NCBI GenBank assembly: GCA_018262975.1
Contig: JADFDG010000011.1
Span: 1 to 46,194, forward strand
Reading direction: 5' to 3'
Length of the DNA stretch: 46,194 nt
Source: Gammaproteobacteria bacterium
GTDB lineage: Bacteria; Pseudomonadota; Gammaproteobacteria; Pseudomonadales; JADFDG01
Under the pieces are notes generated by a model. The model was not told where the DNA came from. It saw only the letters and a list, made by a program, of their open reading frames with translations, and searched no databases. A program made the position numbers and the translations under genes. Positions 5,526 through 14,733 of the stretch are shown piece by piece (position 1 is the first letter of the stretch; each line of letters begins with the position of its first letter).

Positions 5526-7058
5526 TCAGGTGATCTTTTCCTTCAGTTTCTTCGCGCAACGGTCGACGATCTGGATGAGTTTCTCGCGGTCGTCGGGTTC
5601 CACTTCGCCGTTGCGCAGGCGGATCAGGAAGCCGCTGGCTTCCGCCTCCAGGGTCTGGCCGGTGGTGGTGCGCAGTATCTTCACTGCCTGCACCAGCGCG
5701 TCGATGACCTTGGTCTGCTCGTAGTTGCGGATCTTTTCGACGTCGAACACCAGCGTCATGCCGGGGCGGTCGACAGACTGGTAGTTGGCGCCGCCGCCGA
5801 GGTTGCGGCGGAAATCCAGCACCTCGTGGACGGCCACTTCGCCGGCGATGCCCTTCACCGTGATCATGCCCTTGGAGCGGCACTGGATGGTGTCCTTCAC
5901 CAGCTGGTGCGTGGTCTCGGAGATGAGGATGGTGCCCGGTGCGGTGGACGACTCCAGCCGGCTGGCCAGGTTCACCTCGCGGCCCAGGATAGTGTAATCC
6001 ATGCGCGACTCGGCGCCGAAGTTGCCCACCGTGCACACGCCCGAGTTGATGCCGATGCGGATCTCCAGCGGCGTGTTCACGCCCTGTTCCTTCCAGCGCT
6101 GGCGCAGCACGTGCATCTGCTTCTGCATCTCGATGGCCATGGACACGCAGGCCACCGCGTCCTCGCGCGTGCCCCGGGAGACCGGGTCGCCGAAGAAGAT
6201 CATGATGCCGTCGCCCATGAACTTGTCGATGGTGCCGCCGTGCTTGAGCGCGATGCGGGTCATCTCGTTCAGGTACTGGTTGAGGATGGCGGTGAGTTGC
6301 TCGAGCGGGATCTCGTCGGACAGGTTGGTGAAGCCACGCACGTCGGAGAAGAACACCGTGAGCTTCTTGCGGCGCGTTTCCAGCTTGGCATCGCGGCGGC
6401 CGGAGAACAGGGCGCCGTAGACTTGCGGCGGCAGGTACTTGGACAGGCGGCGGGTGAGTGCCAGGGCCTGCTCGCGCTGGGCGCGGATTTCCTGCTGCGC
6501 CTTGAGCAGGATGTCGCGCTGCTCCTGGCTGAAATAGGCGTTGATGGCCAGGTAGATGAACATGCCCATGATCGGCACGATGGTCAGCAGTGCCGGTGTG
6601 TCCGCGTAGCGCAGCAGCGAGAAGCCCAGCAGGATGGCACCGGCAATGCTGCCGAGCACCGTGACGGCCACGCTCATCAGGAAGGTTTGCACGCCGCCGA
6701 GCGCCATCGCGTTGGCGGCCACGATCATCATCACCATCAGGCTGGGCACGACGGCAAACTGCATGGCGGCGATCGACAGGCCGATCATGGCCGCGTCGAG
6801 CACGAACAGCGTGGCGTTGACGGTGCCCACCGGGCGGGCACGGCGCAGCAGAAACTCGGCCAGCCAGTGCGCAAAGCCCGGGTAGACCAGCATCAGCGGG
6901 ATCAGCACCGCGTGCAATTTGGGGAATGCGCGGCTGGCAATGCCGGCGGCGATGGTGCCGGTCACGACGAGGAACGCCAGGTGGCGGACGTAGCGCGCCT
7001 GCTTGGTGCCGACGTCGGCGCCGGGTACGCGGGGGGGATCGTAATAGGTTTCCGGCAT
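5526..7058 (-). CDS. Membrane class III adenylate cyclase, MASE2-like sensor (CyaB-like)
   Basis: Makes cyclic AMP from ATP. 510 residues from the ATG at 7058. Residues ~20-175 hold about five or six membrane segments whose pattern (RxxRH start, LDAAM, VPSLMVMM, NAMALGG) resembles the MASE2 domain of Pseudomonas CyaB. A short coiled linker (~177-210) leads to the catalytic domain (~230-390), with metal-binding Asp239 (FSDVRG) and Asp283 (MGDG), adenine-selecting Lys279 and Thr356, and transition-state Asn363 and Arg367. Thr instead of Asp at the second adenine position is the class IIIb signature, a class that includes bicarbonate-responsive enzymes. About 115 extra C-terminal residues are unassigned. 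It is convergent with queF. Confidence 0.9.
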   Translation of the reverse strand: MPETYYDPPRVPGADVGTKQARYVRHLAFLVVTGTIAAGIASRAFPKLHAVLIPLMLVYPGFAHWLAEFLLRRARPVGTVNATLFVLDAAMIGLSIAAMQFAVVPSLMVMMIVAANAMALGGVQTFLMSVAVTVLGSIAGAILLGFSLLRYADTPALLTIVPIMGMFIYLAINAYFSQEQRDILLKAQQEIRAQREQALALTRRLSKYLPPQVYGALFSGRRDAKLETRRKKLTVFFSDVRGFTNLSDEIPLEQLTAILNQYLNEMTRIALKHGGTIDKFMGDGIMIFFGDPVSRGTREDAVACVSMAIEMQKQMHVLRQRWKEQGVNTPLEIRIGINSGVCTVGNFGAESRMDYTILGREVNLASRLESSTAPGTILISETTHQLVKDTIQCRSKGMITVKGIAGEVAVHEVLDFRRNLGGGANYQSVDRPGMTLVFDVEKIRNYEQTKVIDALVQAVKILRTTTGQTLEAEASGFLIRLRNGEVEPDDREKLIQIVDRCAKKLKEKIT

Positions 7059-7077
7059 CGGGATTTCCGGTGAATGT

Positions 7078-7094
7078 CCCCGGCAGGACCGGGG
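7078..7094 (-). promoter_or_regulatory. Leader hairpin ahead of the cyclase gene
   Basis: CCCCGG and CCGGGG pair perfectly around a five-base loop, 20-36 bases upstream of the cyclase ATG. It lies in the 5' untranslated region and may modulate translation (inference). Confidence 0.4.
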
Positions 7095-7137
7095 CGCAAA
7101 CCCTTTGTTTTTATTGGCAGGACAGGGAGTGGCGGCT

Positions 7138-7143
7138 ATTGTA
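7138..7143 (-). promoter_or_regulatory. Candidate -10 element for the cyclase gene
   Basis: On the minus strand this reads TACAAT, close to the sigma-70 consensus, and would give a leader of about 70 bases. The -35 region is weak, so activator dependence or a chance match are both possible. Confidence 0.35.
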
Positions 7144-7230
7144 ACCCGCTGAGCGATGCACTGTGCGAGGGCATGCACGGGGCGTGTCGCCGATTTCATC
7201 GCCTGCCGTAACGTCAACCGGAGCCATGCC

Positions 7231-7794
7231 ATGGACGTGATCACGGCCATCCTCGGGCGCGTGTCCTGCCCGAAGCTGGTGGCCCCGGGGCCGTCTGCCG
7301 GGGAGATCGATACCATCCTGCGCTGTGCGCTGCGGGCGCCCGACCACGGGCTGCTGCGCCCCTGGCGCTTCCTGGTGGTCGAGGGCGAGGCCCGCCAGGC
7401 CCTCGGTGAACTGTTTGTCGAGGCCGAGCGCATCCGCAATCCGCAGGCCAGCGCCGAGGCCCTGGACAAGTTGCGCCGCAATCCGCTGCGTGCGCCGGTG
7501 GTGGTGGTGTGCGTGGCGGCGACCGTGCCAGGCCACAAGGTACCGGTGATCGAGCAGGTGGCCAGTACGGCGGCGGCCGTGCAGAACATGCAACTGGCGG
7601 CCGACGCCCTGGGTTATGGCGCCATGTGGCGTACCGGGCCGATGGCATTCGATGCCCACGTGAAGGCCTGCCTGGGCTTCGAGGCCAAGGACGAGATCGT
7701 CGCGTTCCTGTACCTGGGCCGGGTGGACGGCGAGCGCCGGCGTGCGGAGGTGCCGGAACTCGAGGCGTACGCGCACCGCTGGACCGGCCGGTGA
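7231..7794 (+). CDS. ydjA: Nitroreductase family flavoprotein, YdjA-like
   Basis: 187 residues, matching the minimal nitroreductase YdjA of E. coli (183 aa) in length and landmarks: ILRCALRAPDHGLLRPWRF (FMN-binding), the RAPVVVVCVA strand, HKVPVIEQ, GYGAMWRTG and the C-terminal VAFLYLGR. The family binds FMN and uses NAD(P)H to reduce nitro or quinone-like compounds; the physiological substrate is unknown. ATG 7231 is preceded by CCGGAG. The frame stays open upstream but is not conserved there. The stop overlaps the GTG start of the thioesterase gene by four bases, so the two are coupled. Confidence 0.9.
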   Translation: MDVITAILGRVSCPKLVAPGPSAGEIDTILRCALRAPDHGLLRPWRFLVVEGEARQALGELFVEAERIRNPQASAEALDKLRRNPLRAPVVVVCVAATVPGHKVPVIEQVASTAAAVQNMQLAADALGYGAMWRTGPMAFDAHVKACLGFEAKDEIVAFLYLGRVDGERRRAEVPELEAYAHRWTGR

Positions 7795-8446: not shown

Positions 8447-8534
8447 GGTGAGATGTCCGAGTGGCCGAAGGAGCACGCCTGGAAAGTGTGTATACCGCAA
8501 GGTATCGAGGGTTCGACTCCCTCTCTCACCGCCA
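8447..8534 (+). tRNA. tRNA-Ser (anticodon GGA)
   Basis: 88 bases including an encoded CCA. The acceptor stem GGTGAGA/TCTCACC closes; the D-arm has GTCCGAGTGGCC-GAAGG; the anticodon loop in ACGCCTGGAAAGTGTG gives GGA, which reads UCC and UCU. There is a long class II variable arm, and the T-arm is GAGGGTTCGACTCCCTC. A strong terminator follows at 8545. Confidence 0.97.
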
Positions 8535-8544
8535 AACATGAAAG

Positions 8545-8566
8545 AGGCCCCTGACGGGGCCTTTTT
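8545..8566 (+). terminator. Rho-independent terminator after tRNA-Ser(GGA)
   Basis: AGGCCCC, a TGAC loop, then GGGGCCT followed by a run of T. It starts 11 bases after the tRNA CCA end. The stem is nearly symmetrical (AAAG on the other side), so it may also help stop the opposite-strand operon. Confidence 0.92.
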
Positions 8567-8587: not shown

Positions 8588-8616
8588 GCAGCGAGGGGGC
8601 CATGCCCCCTCGCTAC
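8588..8616. repeat. Dispersed GC palindrome, copy 3 (full dyad)
   Basis: GCAGCGAGGGGGCCATGCCC with the continuing CCTCGCTAC arm makes a nearly complete dyad (GCAGCGAGGGGG against CCCCCTCGCTAC). Read on the minus strand it begins GTAGCGA, and its TAG (8613-8615) is the stop codon of the DUF4403 gene. Confidence 0.82.
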
Positions 8617-9989
8617 GTGCGGTGGTCGATCAGTACCTGCAGGTCACCGTGGGTCTCCACCATCAGTGCCAGCGCGTGTGCGCTCACCGCCAGACCGGTG
8701 AGGCGCACGCCGGTCATGCGCCCGTGCAGTTGCACGCCTTCGCCCAGCGCGATGCCGGTATCGAGGCGCGTGTTGACCTCGCCGAGCAGGCGCGCCGCCT
8801 GCGGTTCCAGCGGCAGGCCCAGCCACGGTTCGAGGATGGTGCCGGCAAACGGCCTGAGCACGGTGGCGGCGATGTTCAGCAGGCGACTGTCGGTATCCAC
8901 GTCGTAGCGGAAATCCTCCAGCGACAGGTGCTGGCGCTCGATGTCCAGGCGTGGCCGGCCGCTGGCCGACAGCGTGCCGTCCACCTCGAAGCCCCCGTGA
9001 CTGCTGGTGACGGCGACGCTGACGCGCACCTGCAGCGAGCCGTCGCCCTCGCCGGTGATGTTCACGTCGCGCAGCAGCAGGTGGCGGCCGTCGAATTGCC
9101 ACGGGTGGTTGGCGATGTTGTCGCGCAGCGCGGCTTCAAGCGAGGCAAACGACGCTTCCAGTGGCAGCGACAGGGCGATGCCGTCGGGCGCCTCGCCGGG
9201 CGATACTGCCGGCAGCGGTGCCGGGTCCTCCGGTTCGGCGGTGGACGCCTGCGCGCGGATGCGCGCGAGCACCGCCAGTTCCAGCACGCCGAATTCACCG
9301 CGCGTGCGAAACGGGCGCGCGTGCACGCCCTCGGGGTGGATGGACAACTGGAAATGGTGGCCGGGCGCCAGTTCGAACGGGCGTTGCACGGCCTGCCAGC
9401 CGCGCTCGGCTTCCTCGCGGAAATTGAGGTAATGGAAGTCGTCGCTGTTGAGCCAGTCGCCCAGCGCTTCCAGCGCTTCCTCGGCGGCGCGGCGGGTGGC
9501 TCCGCTCAGGGTCACGCCCACGCCGATGGCCTCGACGCCCACCGGGCGATCCACTTCGTAGCTGAACGTGGCGTTCAGCCGCAGGTTGTAGTCGCCGTCG
9601 ATGTGCGGGCGCGCCTGCAGGCGCACCGTGTACTCGGCGGTGACGTCCAGCGGCAGGCTGATGTCCAGCGGCAGCGACAACGGACCCAGTTGCGGCGTCC
9701 AGCTGGGCAGCAGGACGATCCGCACCGGCAGCGCCGCATTGACGGTGTCGCCGGCCATGGCCACGTGCGTGCTGCCGCGTCGCCAGACCTGCACCGTGCC
9801 GGTGACGCCATGCCCCAGGTCGAGTTCCTCGCGCTGGTAGAGCAGGCCGTGCTCCGGGCGGATGCCGTCGAGCACGTCGTCGAGGGTGCGCTCCAGGTAG
9901 GCGGCGCTGACGGTGATGGGGACGACCAGCGTCGAACGCGGCAGGGCTGCGTCGGCGCGGGTCATGTCCGGGGAAGGCAGGTATGACAT
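8613..9989 (-). CDS. DUF4403 family protein
   Basis: 458 residues. The opening STLVVPITVSAAYLERTLDDVL, the ly-xxx-REEL segment and repeated Val-Xaa-Val beta strands match the DUF4403 pattern as I know it; function is unknown. A second copy of the N-terminal motif appears mid-protein (IALSLPLEASFASLEAALRDNI), so the protein looks like a tandem duplication of one beta-rich module. An in-frame TAG 12 bases upstream of the ATG fixes the N-terminus, and no signal peptide is present, unlike its two exported operon neighbours. It is the last gene of the propeller-CHAT-DUF4403 set, 49 bases after the CHAT stop. Its own stop lies in repeat copy 3. Confidence 0.8.
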   Translation of the reverse strand: MSYLPSPDMTRADAALPRSTLVVPITVSAAYLERTLDDVLDGIRPEHGLLYQREELDLGHGVTGTVQVWRRGSTHVAMAGDTVNAALPVRIVLLPSWTPQLGPLSLPLDISLPLDVTAEYTVRLQARPHIDGDYNLRLNATFSYEVDRPVGVEAIGVGVTLSGATRRAAEEALEALGDWLNSDDFHYLNFREEAERGWQAVQRPFELAPGHHFQLSIHPEGVHARPFRTRGEFGVLELAVLARIRAQASTAEPEDPAPLPAVSPGEAPDGIALSLPLEASFASLEAALRDNIANHPWQFDGRHLLLRDVNITGEGDGSLQVRVSVAVTSSHGGFEVDGTLSASGRPRLDIERQHLSLEDFRYDVDTDSRLLNIAATVLRPFAGTILEPWLGLPLEPQAARLLGEVNTRLDTGIALGEGVQLHGRMTGVRLTGLAVSAHALALMVETHGDLQVLIDHRT

Positions 9990-10038
9990 GTCGAGAGGCT
10001 ACACGGGCCGGCGCCGATGCTCCAGCGGGTCACGCAGC

Positions 10039-12897
10039 TCAGATGCCGTAGTACGCAAACGGCGCCCAGAAGTTCGGGTGTCGGTTCTCCTCGCCGAATT
10101 CGCCGGCGATGAAACGGCGCTTCATGTCCGCCATGGCGTCGGCGTAGTTCATGCCGTCGTGTGCGGCGAGGTTGTACAGACCGGCCATGAACATCATGGT
10201 GGCGGCGTCGGAAATCGCCCACAACGATACCGACATGCCATTGGCACCGGCCTGCAGGAAGGCGCGGGTGAGCCCGCCCACGCCTTCGCCGGCGTAGACC
10301 TTGCCGAGGCCTGTCTCGCAGGCGGAGAGCGCGACGAAGTCCGCCTGCAGTTTCAGGTCCTTGATCTCGCCGGCCGCGAGGTAGCCGTCCTCGCCGCCCT
10401 GTTCCGTCATCGGCAACGAGGTAATGACGGTGGACAGCTCGGGCAGGGTGGGCACCACCATGCCGTGGGTGGCGAGGTGCAGCACCTTGTACTGCGCGAG
10501 CTCCCCGCTGCGCGACATGGCCTTGATGCGGGCCTCGGAAAAATCCTGCGCGTACAAGGCGGTGACGCCGGGCACGGTCTGCTGGATCACGGCGACTTCC
10601 TTGAGCGTGCCGGGCAGGTAGCTCCAGGACTGGCCCGTCACGCCGATGGCCGCGTAGTTGGCACGCTGTGAGCGTCCGGTGCGGAAATTCTCCAGCACGC
10701 TGCGCTGCACGGCGCGGAAGGATGGCTCGTCGGTGGCCAGTGGTGTGCTGGCCGTGTATGGCTCGTAGATCGCGCCGCCGAATGCGAGGATGGGCTTGCG
10801 CGACGGCGGGTACTTGCGCGCGGCGATGGCGCGCCACACCGTCATCGACGGCGTGTAGCGCACCGCGTAGCGCTGGATGAGGTATTGGCCGCGGTTGTCG
10901 CGCAGCGCCTCGAACGGCACGAAGCTCAGGTACTCGTCCGCGCTGATCACCAGCCGCGTCTTGCCGGCGAGCAGTGGCTCTACCGGTGCGACCAGCAGCT
11001 GGTGGAACAGGGCGAGGACCTGGTCGCGCGTGGCGGCCAGCGCGGTGTGGCCTTCTTCAGCCTGCATGATCTCGCGCAGCAGCGAGATGCTGAGGCCCAC
11101 GTCGTCCATGCCGCGCGCCTGGAAGGGGTTGAACGAGCGTTCGTTGGCTGGCAGCGATGCGAAGGCTTTCTGGTAGACGGATGCCAGCGTTCTGAGTTGG
11201 CTCATGAACTGGCGGTTCTCGCTGTACACCGAGCGCACGCCCTCGCGCGTGACCACGCTGATGGCCACCGCGCCGGGCTCGGTGACGCCGAACAGCACGG
11301 CGGCCTCGTCGGCGCGCAGGTTTTGCTGCACCCAGGCCACGTCCGCGCGGGCCAGGTTTCGGCCGAGGCCCATGGTCTCGGCGAGCACGCGGCCACGCGA
11401 GTTCTCCAGCGTGTCGTACAGCGGCTGCGCCTGGTTGAGCTTGCCGTAGGCCATGGCGAGAAACTGGTAGGCGCTCACCTGCTGACCGATGAAGTCGATG
11501 CGTGCGTCGACGGGAACGTTGGCGCGGTGATTCTCGACGAACTGCACGGCTTCCTGCAGCGGTGCAACGGCATCCGCCGGCTGGCCGCCGAACAGCAGCA
11601 TCGCGCCGAGATTGTTCAGCGCGGTGACCGCGCCGATGTAGTTGCCGGCCTGGCGCTGCTGTTCCGCCGAGCGACGCGCCATGTCGAGACCGCGCGCGCG
11701 GTCGCCGCCGCGGAAATGGATGATGGCCATGTTCGACCAGATTTGCGGCAGGATGTCCGCGAAGTTGCCGGCGGTGGCGAGTGCCAGCGCCTGCTCGCCC
11801 GCCTGGCGGGTGGCGTCGCGGTCTGCTTGCGTGTTGCCCATCAGCGCGGCGACGGTCAGCGCGTTGTAGCCCAGTGCGCGGAAGTAATCGGCACTGCCGC
11901 CGGCATTGGCGGCGACCTTGAGCAACAGGTTGGCGTCGGCGGTGATGGCGGCGCGGTTGGGCTCAGGCATCGCCAGGCGGGCGTTGATTCGGCGGTTGAC
12001 GAGCCCGGCGATCGCGGAAGGGAAGGGGTGTTCGGGGTAGGCGGCGAGGAAACGGTCGACGGCCTCGATCGCCCGTTGCGGCTGCGCGTACGCGACGGCG
12101 AGGTTGGCCTGGTGGTCGACGAGGCGCGCGTGCCACAGCGGGTTGTCCGGGCGTTGCTGCGCCTGGTAGTCGAGACCGACTTGCAGGAAGCGCTGCGCGC
12201 GCGCTGCATCGTTGGCGCCAAGAAACAGGGTCACGGCGAAGGCATAGCTGCTGACGACATAGGGCGCCGGGGCGGACGGCAGCGACTTCAGGCGGTTCAT
12301 CGCCTGGGTGATCTGCGTTTCCGCGTGCGACGGGTTACCGCCGTTGAGGGCCTGCACGCCGGCACCGTACTGCGCCTTGATCGCCGCCATGTCGCGCCCG
12401 CGATTGAGGCGGTTGAACTCGCCCTGGCTGAAGGCCTTGAGGTCGTTGAACGCGCCGGCCTGGCCGTACTGGTTCACCATGTCGTCGCAGTCCGCGAGGT
12501 GGATCGCGAACTGGTCCTCCGTGGCCATCAGGCGCAGCGAACGGGATACCCATTCGCGCGCGGCGGCACCGTTGCCGCCGATCAGCTCAAGGTAGCCGAT
12601 CAGCCGCGCCGTGTCGTGGTTGCTGTTGTCTGCGTACCAGGCCTTGGTGAGCGTGGCCTTCGCGCCGACGATATCCCGCAGCCCGATCTGCGCATTGCCA
12701 AGCAGCAGCAGCGCGAAGCCGTTTTCCGGTTGCAGCGCCACGGCGCGCGCGGCGGCGTCGCGCGCGACGGACCAGTTCTTCTGACCGGTGGCCGCGAGCG
12801 ACTGTTCGATGAAAGGTTGGCCCGGGTCGGTGTACGCGGCGCACGGTTGCGCGAGCAACGCCAGCAGCAGCGTGATCCCTTTCAACATGTTGTTCAT
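10039..12897 (-). CDS. Exported TPR-CHAT caspase-like protease
   Basis: 952 residues. A signal peptide (MNNMLKGITLLLALLAQPCAAY, cut near residue 21) sends it to the periplasm or beyond. Residues ~25-560 are tetratricopeptide-type helical repeats, for example QPENGFALLLLGNAQIGLRD and AVTALNNLGAMLLFGGQPADAV. The C-terminal CHAT domain (~660-952) carries the caspase-like dyad: His811 in HLATHG and Cys860 in LSACETG, followed by GEGVGGLTRAF and AGANGMSVSLW. Both catalytic residues are intact, so it should be an active cysteine peptidase. CHAT proteases (separase/caspase clan) usually cut partner proteins on a trigger, as in Craspase; the trigger and target here are unknown. It lies between the propeller gene and DUF4403, with 49-base gaps on both sides. 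Confidence 0.93.
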   Translation of the reverse strand: MNNMLKGITLLLALLAQPCAAYTDPGQPFIEQSLAATGQKNWSVARDAAARAVALQPENGFALLLLGNAQIGLRDIVGAKATLTKAWYADNSNHDTARLIGYLELIGGNGAAAREWVSRSLRLMATEDQFAIHLADCDDMVNQYGQAGAFNDLKAFSQGEFNRLNRGRDMAAIKAQYGAGVQALNGGNPSHAETQITQAMNRLKSLPSAPAPYVVSSYAFAVTLFLGANDAARAQRFLQVGLDYQAQQRPDNPLWHARLVDHQANLAVAYAQPQRAIEAVDRFLAAYPEHPFPSAIAGLVNRRINARLAMPEPNRAAITADANLLLKVAANAGGSADYFRALGYNALTVAALMGNTQADRDATRQAGEQALALATAGNFADILPQIWSNMAIIHFRGGDRARGLDMARRSAEQQRQAGNYIGAVTALNNLGAMLLFGGQPADAVAPLQEAVQFVENHRANVPVDARIDFIGQQVSAYQFLAMAYGKLNQAQPLYDTLENSRGRVLAETMGLGRNLARADVAWVQQNLRADEAAVLFGVTEPGAVAISVVTREGVRSVYSENRQFMSQLRTLASVYQKAFASLPANERSFNPFQARGMDDVGLSISLLREIMQAEEGHTALAATRDQVLALFHQLLVAPVEPLLAGKTRLVISADEYLSFVPFEALRDNRGQYLIQRYAVRYTPSMTVWRAIAARKYPPSRKPILAFGGAIYEPYTASTPLATDEPSFRAVQRSVLENFRTGRSQRANYAAIGVTGQSWSYLPGTLKEVAVIQQTVPGVTALYAQDFSEARIKAMSRSGELAQYKVLHLATHGMVVPTLPELSTVITSLPMTEQGGEDGYLAAGEIKDLKLQADFVALSACETGLGKVYAGEGVGGLTRAFLQAGANGMSVSLWAISDAATMMFMAGLYNLAAHDGMNYADAMADMKRRFIAGEFGEENRHPNFWAPFAYYGI

Positions 12898-12946
12898 GGG
12901 GGTGTTCCGTTGTTCTCGTCTGTCGGCGACCGGCCTTGCTGCGTGC

Positions 12947-14506
12947 TCAACGCAGGTTGCAGGTCTGCTTGTCGACCGTGAGGGTCGTGGCGCGTTCGCC
13001 GTCCCAGGCGGATTGCCGGACGTCGAAGTGCACTTGCGCGGCGTCCGACCGCATGGCGAAGGACACCACCAGTGGGCGGCCGCTGCTGTCTTTCTGCGTG
13101 CGACCGATGTCCTGCGTCGCCATCGGCTTGCCGTCGACGTCGAGCGTGAGCAACTGGAACAGGGCGACGTCGGCCCCGCCGCGCTGGCTGCGGGTCAGCG
13201 TGAGCAGGGCGACGCTGCCGTTGCCGCAGTCGGCGACCTTGCCGATGGCGTTGAACGTCTGGCCGCCGAGGAAGGGGCCGTAGTGGCGGCTGGCCCAGGC
13301 GTAGCCGGTGACGTCACGGCCCTGCAGACTGTTGTAGTCGAGCACCCAGGCGGCCGGCAGCGCGGTGAAGTTGGCCAGGAACTGCTGGTAATCGGCCGTG
13401 CGGTTGGCGATGCGGCCCGCCAGCGCGGCGGCTTCTGCGGCCTGGCTGGCGGCGAGTTGCGCCTCGGCCTGCTGCCGAAGGCTGGCGACCTGCTGGCGGA
13501 AGGTGTCGGCGTCCTCGATGAGGCGGTATTCGTTGACGACGGCACCGGTGGCGATGTTGACGACACGGACGCGGGCCTTGGACGACCCGGTGTCGACCAG
13601 CATGGCGACCAATCCGCTGTCACCGACGAGCACGGGTTGCTCGATGCTGTCCCGGGTGCGCCAGGTCGCCACCGGGGTGCCGTCGGCGCGCTCGACCGCC
13701 AGCAGGTACTGCCAGTTGCCGGCCTCATCGCGCTGCGACGGCGGCTGCCGCAGGCGCAGCGTGCGGTCGGAGTTCATGTGGACGATGCTGCCGGCCCCGG
13801 TTTCCTCGACGTATTCGCCGATGACCAGGTTGAAGCTGCGCTTCTTGTTGCTCTTGTTCTTCTCGGGTTTGTCCCAGGGCCAGCGGTAGAGCCGGTCATT
13901 GCTGGCCAGCCAGGTGCCGTCGCCGCGCACGAATGCCGTGCCGTCCTTGCCCTTCCGCAGTACGCGGTCCAGGTTGCCGCTCAACGGGTCGCGGATCTCC
14001 ACGTCGCCGTTGTGGGCCACCACTGCCATGCGACTGTTGTCCGGCGCGAAACCGGCGATTGCCCGGTAGCTGCCCACGTGGCGCATGGTGCGCGCATTGG
14101 CGTCCCAGAGCATGGCCGTCGTCTTCAGGTTCGGATCCCGCTCGAGGACGGACAGCAGCCGGCCGTCCCGGCTGGCGGCGGCGATGTGCCAGACACCGTT
14201 GCGGCCCATGCTGCCGTTGAACTGGTAGTTCACGCTGTCAAAGGTGCGCGCGTAGGCGGTGCCCTCGTCGTGGACCAGACGGCCGGTGGCGACATCCCAG
14301 GCCTTGAGCTGCACCCGGTTGGACGCCCACAGCAGGGTGCCATCGCCGCTGAAGCGTGCGGAGACCACCAGTTCGTACGGCATGAACCTGTCCATGGCCG
14401 GCAGCGGCATGACCGGGGACCCGCCCGCGAGGGCGGTGCCCGGGGCGGCGCAGACGGCGATGAGGACGAGGGCGACGTGCAGCAGGTGTTTCATGTCGGC
14501 TTCCAT
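12947..14506 (-). CDS. Exported beta-propeller-like (WD40-type) protein
   Basis: 519 residues from the ATG at 14506, which has GGAGAG eight bases upstream; a second ATG at 14494 is possible. The N-terminus is a signal peptide (hydrophobic HVALVLIAVCAAPGTALA). Blade-like repeats follow: SARFSGDGTLLWAS..LKAWDVATGRLV, AAASRDGRLLS..AMLWDANARTM and AGFAPDNSRMAVVAHNGDVEIRDPLSGNL. This is the WD40/quinoprotein-like pattern (xxWDxxTGxxV). An Ala/Gln-rich helical insertion (~335-385) interrupts the propeller, and two cysteines lie in the C-terminal part. There is no catalytic motif; it is probably a binding or scaffold protein. As the first gene of the operon it probably partners the exported CHAT protease (inference from context). 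Confidence 0.75.
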   Translation of the reverse strand: MEADMKHLLHVALVLIAVCAAPGTALAGGSPVMPLPAMDRFMPYELVVSARFSGDGTLLWASNRVQLKAWDVATGRLVHDEGTAYARTFDSVNYQFNGSMGRNGVWHIAAASRDGRLLSVLERDPNLKTTAMLWDANARTMRHVGSYRAIAGFAPDNSRMAVVAHNGDVEIRDPLSGNLDRVLRKGKDGTAFVRGDGTWLASNDRLYRWPWDKPEKNKSNKKRSFNLVIGEYVEETGAGSIVHMNSDRTLRLRQPPSQRDEAGNWQYLLAVERADGTPVATWRTRDSIEQPVLVGDSGLVAMLVDTGSSKARVRVVNIATGAVVNEYRLIEDADTFRQQVASLRQQAEAQLAASQAAEAAALAGRIANRTADYQQFLANFTALPAAWVLDYNSLQGRDVTGYAWASRHYGPFLGGQTFNAIGKVADCGNGSVALLTLTRSQRGGADVALFQLLTLDVDGKPMATQDIGRTQKDSSGRPLVVSFAMRSDAAQVHFDVRQSAWDGERATTLTVDKQTCNLR

Positions 14507-14643
14507 GCGGCGGGCTCTCCGGCGTTGGTAGCACAACTGGCGGGCGACTGACCATTACCGGAATCCGGGACTGTCAGGGCTGGCCTTGCGCCGCCGTTCG
14601 GGTATCATGGCGCCCCGCCGCCGGTACCCCGGTGGCGGCCCCC

Positions 14644-14733
14644 GGAGAGGTGCCAGAGTGGCCGATCGGGCCGGTCTCGAAAACCGGAGTTGGCGCAAGC
14701 CAACCGAGGGTTCAAATCCCTCCCTCTCCGCCA
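14644..14733 (+). tRNA. tRNA-Ser (anticodon CGA)
   Basis: 90 bases with encoded CCA. The acceptor is GGAGAGG/CCTCTCC, the D-arm is TGCCAGAGTGGCCGATCGG, and the anticodon stem-loop CCGGTCTCGAAAACCGG gives CGA, which reads UCG. The class II variable arm is GTTGGCGCAAGCCAAC, and the T-arm is GAGGGTTCAAATCCCTC. The last 28 bases match tRNA-Ser(GGA) at 8447 at 24 positions. Confidence 0.97.

Follow-up and report, generated by a model that had tools for sequence, protein, structure and literature searches.

Three minus-strand genes lying between two tRNA-Ser genes (14506-8613) in a 46,194-nucleotide stretch of contig JADFDG010000011.1, hereafter the window, encode, from first to last, a WD40-like and probably propeller-forming protein (P0001), a predicted TPR-CHAT peptidase (P0002) and a DUF4403 protein (P0003). 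Our favoured, if tentative, interpretation is that they form a lineage-specific transcription unit whose core is a pair of exported proteins, the CHAT protease and the propeller, with the DUF4403 protein standing apart. According to this model, P0002 would be a periplasmic cysteine peptidase of a common exported type in a diderm, periplasm-bearing host, paired with a periplasmic WD40-like propeller from the gene just upstream. The TPR superhelix would hold a partner or substrate, and this binding would align the CHAT active site; the propeller may be the TPR-bound partner, serving as anchor, adaptor or substrate. The DUF4403 gene would be the last to be read, from a promoter that is either shared or close by, and its product probably has a separate role as a lipid-binding protein, cytoplasmic or peripheral.

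Three genes that may share a transcript

The DNA has a GC content of 68% and the opposite strand also carries long open reading frames (ORFs) of 587, 698 and 534 amino acids, so ORF length alone is no proof of coding. Third-position GC, however, is 0.89-0.92 in the three named ORFs, and their codon-usage score per codon is +0.33 to +0.40, in contrast to -0.18 to -0.23 for the antisense ORFs. The three are genuine genes. The initial annotation had described three same-strand genes with equal 49-base gaps, and ORF coordinates, codon-position GC and codon usage bear this out. The gaps (12898-12946 and 9990-10038) are unrelated in sequence; two random gaps would agree in length with P = 0.007, as judged from the 125 gaps of 0-200 bases between same-strand ORFs in the available DNA, and we see no meaning in the equality. 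Between 8200 and 15000 the minus strand has a single terminator-like site, located directly behind the third gene, and none falls inside 8613-14506. A consensus scan found no sigma-70 site at the locus (0.4 expected by chance). A single transcript for the three genes is plausible.

P0002 is a predicted TPR-CHAT peptidase of an ordinary exported type

P0002 matches the CHAT family (PF12770) at 6.7e-54, with 183.7 bits against a cut-off of 24, and TPR_12 at 9.6e-8. A signal peptide (approximately residues 1-21, by eye and by rule) precedes a TPR region and a CHAT domain at 630-951. His811 and Cys860, named by the initial annotation as an intact dyad, are indeed both in place, making P0002, as far as its sequence tells, a predicted TPR-CHAT cysteine peptidase with an intact dyad. 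Signal peptides here and below were judged by hydrophobicity rules written for this analysis, one looser and one stricter, and not by SignalP.

P0002 has matches in the order sample (16 of 292 other genomes) and in the class sample (33 of 302), none of them covering the whole query. Some are confined to N-terminal TPR stretches, and two of these (L017 and L018) proved to be TPR proteins without CHAT. The samples used throughout (relatives, order, class and phylum) overlap, and the window's genome is the only member of its family in them. CHAT neighbourhoods were examined in 35 stretches, drawn from 12 of the 16 order genomes and 18 of the 33 class genomes with matches, together with a paralogue from the window's own genome. 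Several are short contigs of 3.6-9.4 kb, and some stretches stop at contig edges. A CHAT ORF was present at E<=1e-5 in 34 of the 35, giving 38 CHAT ORFs in total. The 38 ORFs, from the same class, resemble P0002 in their C-terminal CHAT domain and in the dyad, both residues of which are kept in 37 of them. They differ from it in sequence, with 17-24% identity in an alignment of 12 and with the best BLASTP alignments listed starting at residue 425 or later, and in their neighbours.

A signal-like or lipoprotein-like N-terminus was present in 29 of the 38 related ORFs versus 43 of 161 controls, which were non-CHAT ORFs of at least 300 amino acids from the same loci judged by the same hydrophobic rule (Fisher p 2.6e-8, for sequences that are related rather than independent and that include the paralogue). 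Under the looser rule, applied to the first 15 stretches, the count was 18 of 19 CHAT ORFs. At least one of the signal-less CHAT ORFs, that of L098, adjoins masked bases and a separate TPR ORF, and was therefore probably cut short. Given that most of its relatives are signal-bearing, the predicted export of P0002 is ordinary among its kin. The secreted protease of the initial annotation thus keeps its signal-like N-terminus but loses its standing as a special feature.

The CHAT protein might instead be a catalytically silent envelope scaffold, with the propeller as its bound partner. TPR and propeller are both binding folds, and the peptidase activity of P0002 is a prediction, both of which would suit such a role; the intact dyad and its retention among relatives argue against it, and we consider it distinctly improbable.

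In plasmids, P0002 matched 169 records, with no match reaching 80% coverage of the query, and the one neighbourhood inspected, in Variovorax, had no propeller or DUF4403 annotated. Viral contigs, searched with P0001, P0002 and P0003 in turn by a method that reaches close relatives only, gave no match.

P0001 is likely to be an exported propeller

P0001 has a signal peptide at approximately residues 5-27, beginning with Met5 and assigned by eye and by rule. No Pfam family reached its cut-off (best DUF1150, E 0.052), and no Pfam WD40 match was obtained at E<=1. A single stretch, residues 43-80, is similar to one WD40 repeat in PkwA (5yzv), with an E-value of 4.6e-5 when residues 28-330 were used as the query and 0.0021 for the whole protein; beyond this repeat-sized stretch there is little sequence relation to the PkwA WD40 domain. 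A single-sequence AlphaFold2 model, of low confidence (pLDDT 42.5), is strand-rich at 46-328, helical at approximately 333-410 and strand-rich again at 418-512, the helical stretch being a difference from PkwA. Foldseek matches of this full model, with TM ~0.15, were dominated by chains that we take to be WD40-type propellers, and matches of models of such low confidence are meaningless according to the tool's own warning.

The C-terminal fragment was modelled with a pLDDT of 62.0 and has seven long strands, which would fit two propeller blades. VIA-align matched this fragment mostly to viral neuraminidases at Z ~7, the best value of 7.3 falling below the bar of 8 and possibly reflecting a common arrangement only. 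Cys19 inside the signal peptide aside, the only cysteines of the protein are 427 and 516, which might be disulfide-bonded in an oxidising compartment. We consider a propeller fold likely. The secreted propeller of the initial annotation therefore stands as to its signal-like N-terminus, and as to its fold is likely only.

No convincing relative of P0001 was found among 55 relative, 368 class and 298 phylum genomes, the window's own excluded. The sole phylum-sample match (79 residues, E 3.6e-4) falls in an ORF that is an inositol monophosphatase by Pfam, and the Vibrio sinensis stretch that was the sole result of a genome contig scan has an ORF that Pfam assigns to an AraC-type regulator; both were set aside as chance. 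A plasmid search gave one serine/threonine-kinase gene (E 2e-3, residues 44-220), and no relative was found in phages.

Linkage in other genomes and the case for chance

Several results weigh against a transcription unit built on a protease and propeller pair. BLASTP found no relative of P0001 or P0003 among the ORFs of the 35 CHAT stretches, and the propeller-CHAT pair was seen in no other genome examined. The neighbours of related CHAT genes vary by locus, and the adjacency at this locus may therefore be chance. The propeller fold itself is drawn from one repeat-sized match and a low-confidence model, and Foldseek on the C-terminal fragment ranks non-propeller chains first (best E 0.016, human PURA). 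In addition, the terminator scan of both strands yielded 8 sites versus 4.2 (sd 2.3) in shuffles, so that the single site after the third gene is weak evidence for a common transcript.

The lack of linkage and the varied neighbours suit the alternative that the genes are three independent collinear neighbours, with the CHAT peptidase acting alone or with unlinked partners. Consistent with this, five DUF4403 stretches from other genomes, one of them just 5,250 bases long, contained no CHAT or propeller relative. A second CHAT gene in the same genome (G000:C22:55442-56023; L030 4815-9038), on another contig and with an open frame of 1080 amino acids, has a 5'-nucleotidase gene 15 bases downstream and no propeller or DUF4403 relative within the 16 kb around it. 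A promoter could also fit in the 49 bases before the DUF4403 gene, although the consensus scan found none there. Against chance stand the shared strand, the short gaps and the position of the terminator-like site, after the third gene and nowhere inside the cluster. We regard chance adjacency as a serious prospect, if not a probable one. By the initial annotation's own account, an absence of co-occurrence beyond close relatives would refute its proposal, and within these samples no co-occurrence was seen in any of the 35 CHAT and five DUF4403 stretches. In two of the five DUF4403 genomes (G207 and G353) a CHAT gene does occur, on a different contig; the two G207 contigs are short, and a DUF4403-CHAT adjacency across the contig break is possible.

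P0003 is probably cytoplasmic

P0003 matches DUF4403 (PF14356) at 3.6e-55, with 187.8 bits against a cut-off of 28.3, and its residues 18-453 correspond to profile positions 2-424 of 425, which upholds the original assignment and makes P0003 a full-length member. DUF4403 is a predicted BPI-like TULIP lipid-binding family, usually exported or lipoprotein, with 66% of its proteins predicted to be cleaved and acylated, according to Levine 2019 (PMC6791001). P0003 matches nearly the full profile but does not have the hydrophobic leader of its relatives. Five relatives each have a hydrophobic leader or lipobox by eye, and in the best-aligned of them residue 47 pairs with residue 19 of P0003, the relative's leader being missing in P0003. 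The protein starts close to the domain, an in-frame TAG is the fourth codon 5' of its ATG, and the signal call is negative by the stricter rule and weakly positive by the looser one. Given the in-frame stop just upstream and the want of a signal, P0003 is probably cytoplasmic and fits badly as the third member of an envelope system. The family is rare in these samples. A protein search placed it in 5 of the 339 other genomes sampled from the class, and in the order sample 6 of 292 others match at E<=1e-3, two of which are above the family cut-off and one of those full-length; a plasmid search with P0003 found none.

The initial annotation had proposed an envelope system of all three proteins. 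In such a three-part system the propeller and protease would sense or process envelope proteins and the DUF4403 protein would handle lipid, and both the usual location of the family and a plausible single transcript would fit. The stop codon, which bars the upstream gain of a signal, and the lack of linkage in the CHAT and DUF4403 stretches of other genomes speak against it, and we judge this version improbable. A joint envelope system in the broader sense is possible and finds no support outside this one genome.

Comparison with Craspase and HetF

Csx29, the TPR-CHAT protein of Craspase, has TPR followed by CHAT, as does P0002, and works through a Cys/His dyad. Craspase TPR-CHAT is cytoplasmic, RNA-triggered and gRAMP-bound, whereas P0002 bears a signal by our own rules. 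The single sequence of P0002 gave no match among solved chains; a profile of 12 of its relatives matched the Craspase TPR-CHAT structures 8d9g and 7x8a (E ~3e-6).

The initial annotation had noted a link of cytoplasmic CHAT proteases with TPR or WD40 partners to defence or cell death. A circuit in which a triggered CHAT peptidase kills the cell would have its precedent in the type III-E CRISPR complex Craspase, where a CHAT peptidase acts (PMC9729208). The locus offers such a circuit little, and we consider it highly improbable. PADLOC returned no family for P0001, P0002 or P0003 at E<=1, P0002 has a signal peptide, and the five flanking genes scanned belong to other families (a cyclase, a nitroreductase, a thioesterase and an RND pump pair); beyond these five the window was not searched for defence genes, and no search was aimed at gRAMP or a CRISPR array.

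HetF of Anabaena, which also combines CHAT and TPR, is membrane-associated, with one predicted transmembrane segment and CHAT at residues 1-555, and interacts with FtsI (PMC8406250). P0002 differs in having a signal peptide, a C-terminal CHAT domain and no divisome link that we could see.

Neighbourhoods of related CHAT genes

A Pfam scan of the same-strand genes close to the CHAT ORFs, 43 in all, matched none of them to a WD40 family. The families found were sigma-70 region 2 (four, two of them below cut-off), OmpA, TPS and ShlB (two each), and leucine-rich repeats, DUF4915, caspase C14, TonB receptor and others. The opposite-strand neighbour of the CHAT gene in L106 is a protein of the GSDH family, which has a propeller fold. 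A propeller beside CHAT is thus not unique to the window, but this one is unrelated in family and orientation.

At four of 34 CHAT loci (L040 3170-11773, L041 3434-13566, L043 5570-10629 and L044 1681-11472), a CHAT gene of 724-777 amino acids is clustered with a two-partner-secretion transporter (ShlB/POTRA_2); a TPS exoprotein is also encoded in three of these clusters, and an OmpA-domain protein in three. Of four CHAT loci on cyanobacterial plasmids, one has a neighbour annotated with a filamentous hemagglutinin N-terminal domain and the other three have none. A literature search found no paper combining 'CHAT domain' with 'two-partner secretion' or 'filamentous hemagglutinin', and among the titles we noticed none on exported CHAT proteins. 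Elsewhere, in L096 (3572-7570), a caspase-domain (Peptidase_C14) gene comes 186 bases after an exported CHAT gene, so that two caspase-like proteins lie side by side. In L039 (6709-11712) a DUF4915 gene starts 6 bases behind an exported 1298-residue CHAT gene, and in L038 (5881-15999) 219 bases separate a 1104-residue CHAT gene from a downstream 2195-residue leucine-rich-repeat open frame. Lipoprotein-like CHAT genes occur in tandem, as three in L032 (4687-11959) and two in L031 (7707-12617), in two genomes of one genus.

A broader hypothesis is that exported TPR-CHAT peptidases make up a wide and so far unrecognised family of envelope proteases in this (probably gammaproteobacterial) class, in which each lineage has an exchangeable partner that gives target or trigger. 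The partner would be the propeller here and two-partner-secretion, OmpA-domain, leucine-rich-repeat or DUF4915 proteins elsewhere. We hold this to be rather unlikely. CHAT peptidases are best known as cytoplasmic enzymes that respond to a trigger. Should many be exported, as the N-termini seen here suggest, both their triggers and their substrates would have to be sought in the envelope or beyond the cell, with a linked exported propeller as a first candidate. The locus by itself is one unreplicated example.

Feature coordinates and flanking genes

Table 1. Features of the three-gene locus and its edges, in window coordinates
Feature	Position	Strand	Remarks
WD40-like, probably beta-propeller protein P0001, predicted exported	12947..14506	-	519 aa; Met5 (14494) is a possible start
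TPR-CHAT caspase-like peptidase P0002 (predicted), predicted exported	10039..12897	-	952 aa
DUF4403 protein P0003, predicted BPI-like TULIP lipid-binding	8613..9989	-	458 aa; without clear export signal
Terminator-like stem-loop, just 3' of the DUF4403 gene	8545..8562	-	T-rich stretch on both strands, so could serve the convergent tRNA-Ser too
Intergenic region, divergent, propeller gene / tRNA-Ser(cga)	14507..14643	.	Likely promoter region
tRNA-Ser(gga), convergent	8447..8534	+	Downstream edge of cluster
tRNA-Ser(cga), divergent	14644..14733	+	Upstream edge of cluster

The cyclase gene near the cluster, at 5526-7589 of the window, is of the MASE2 type and encodes an adenylate/guanylate cyclase.

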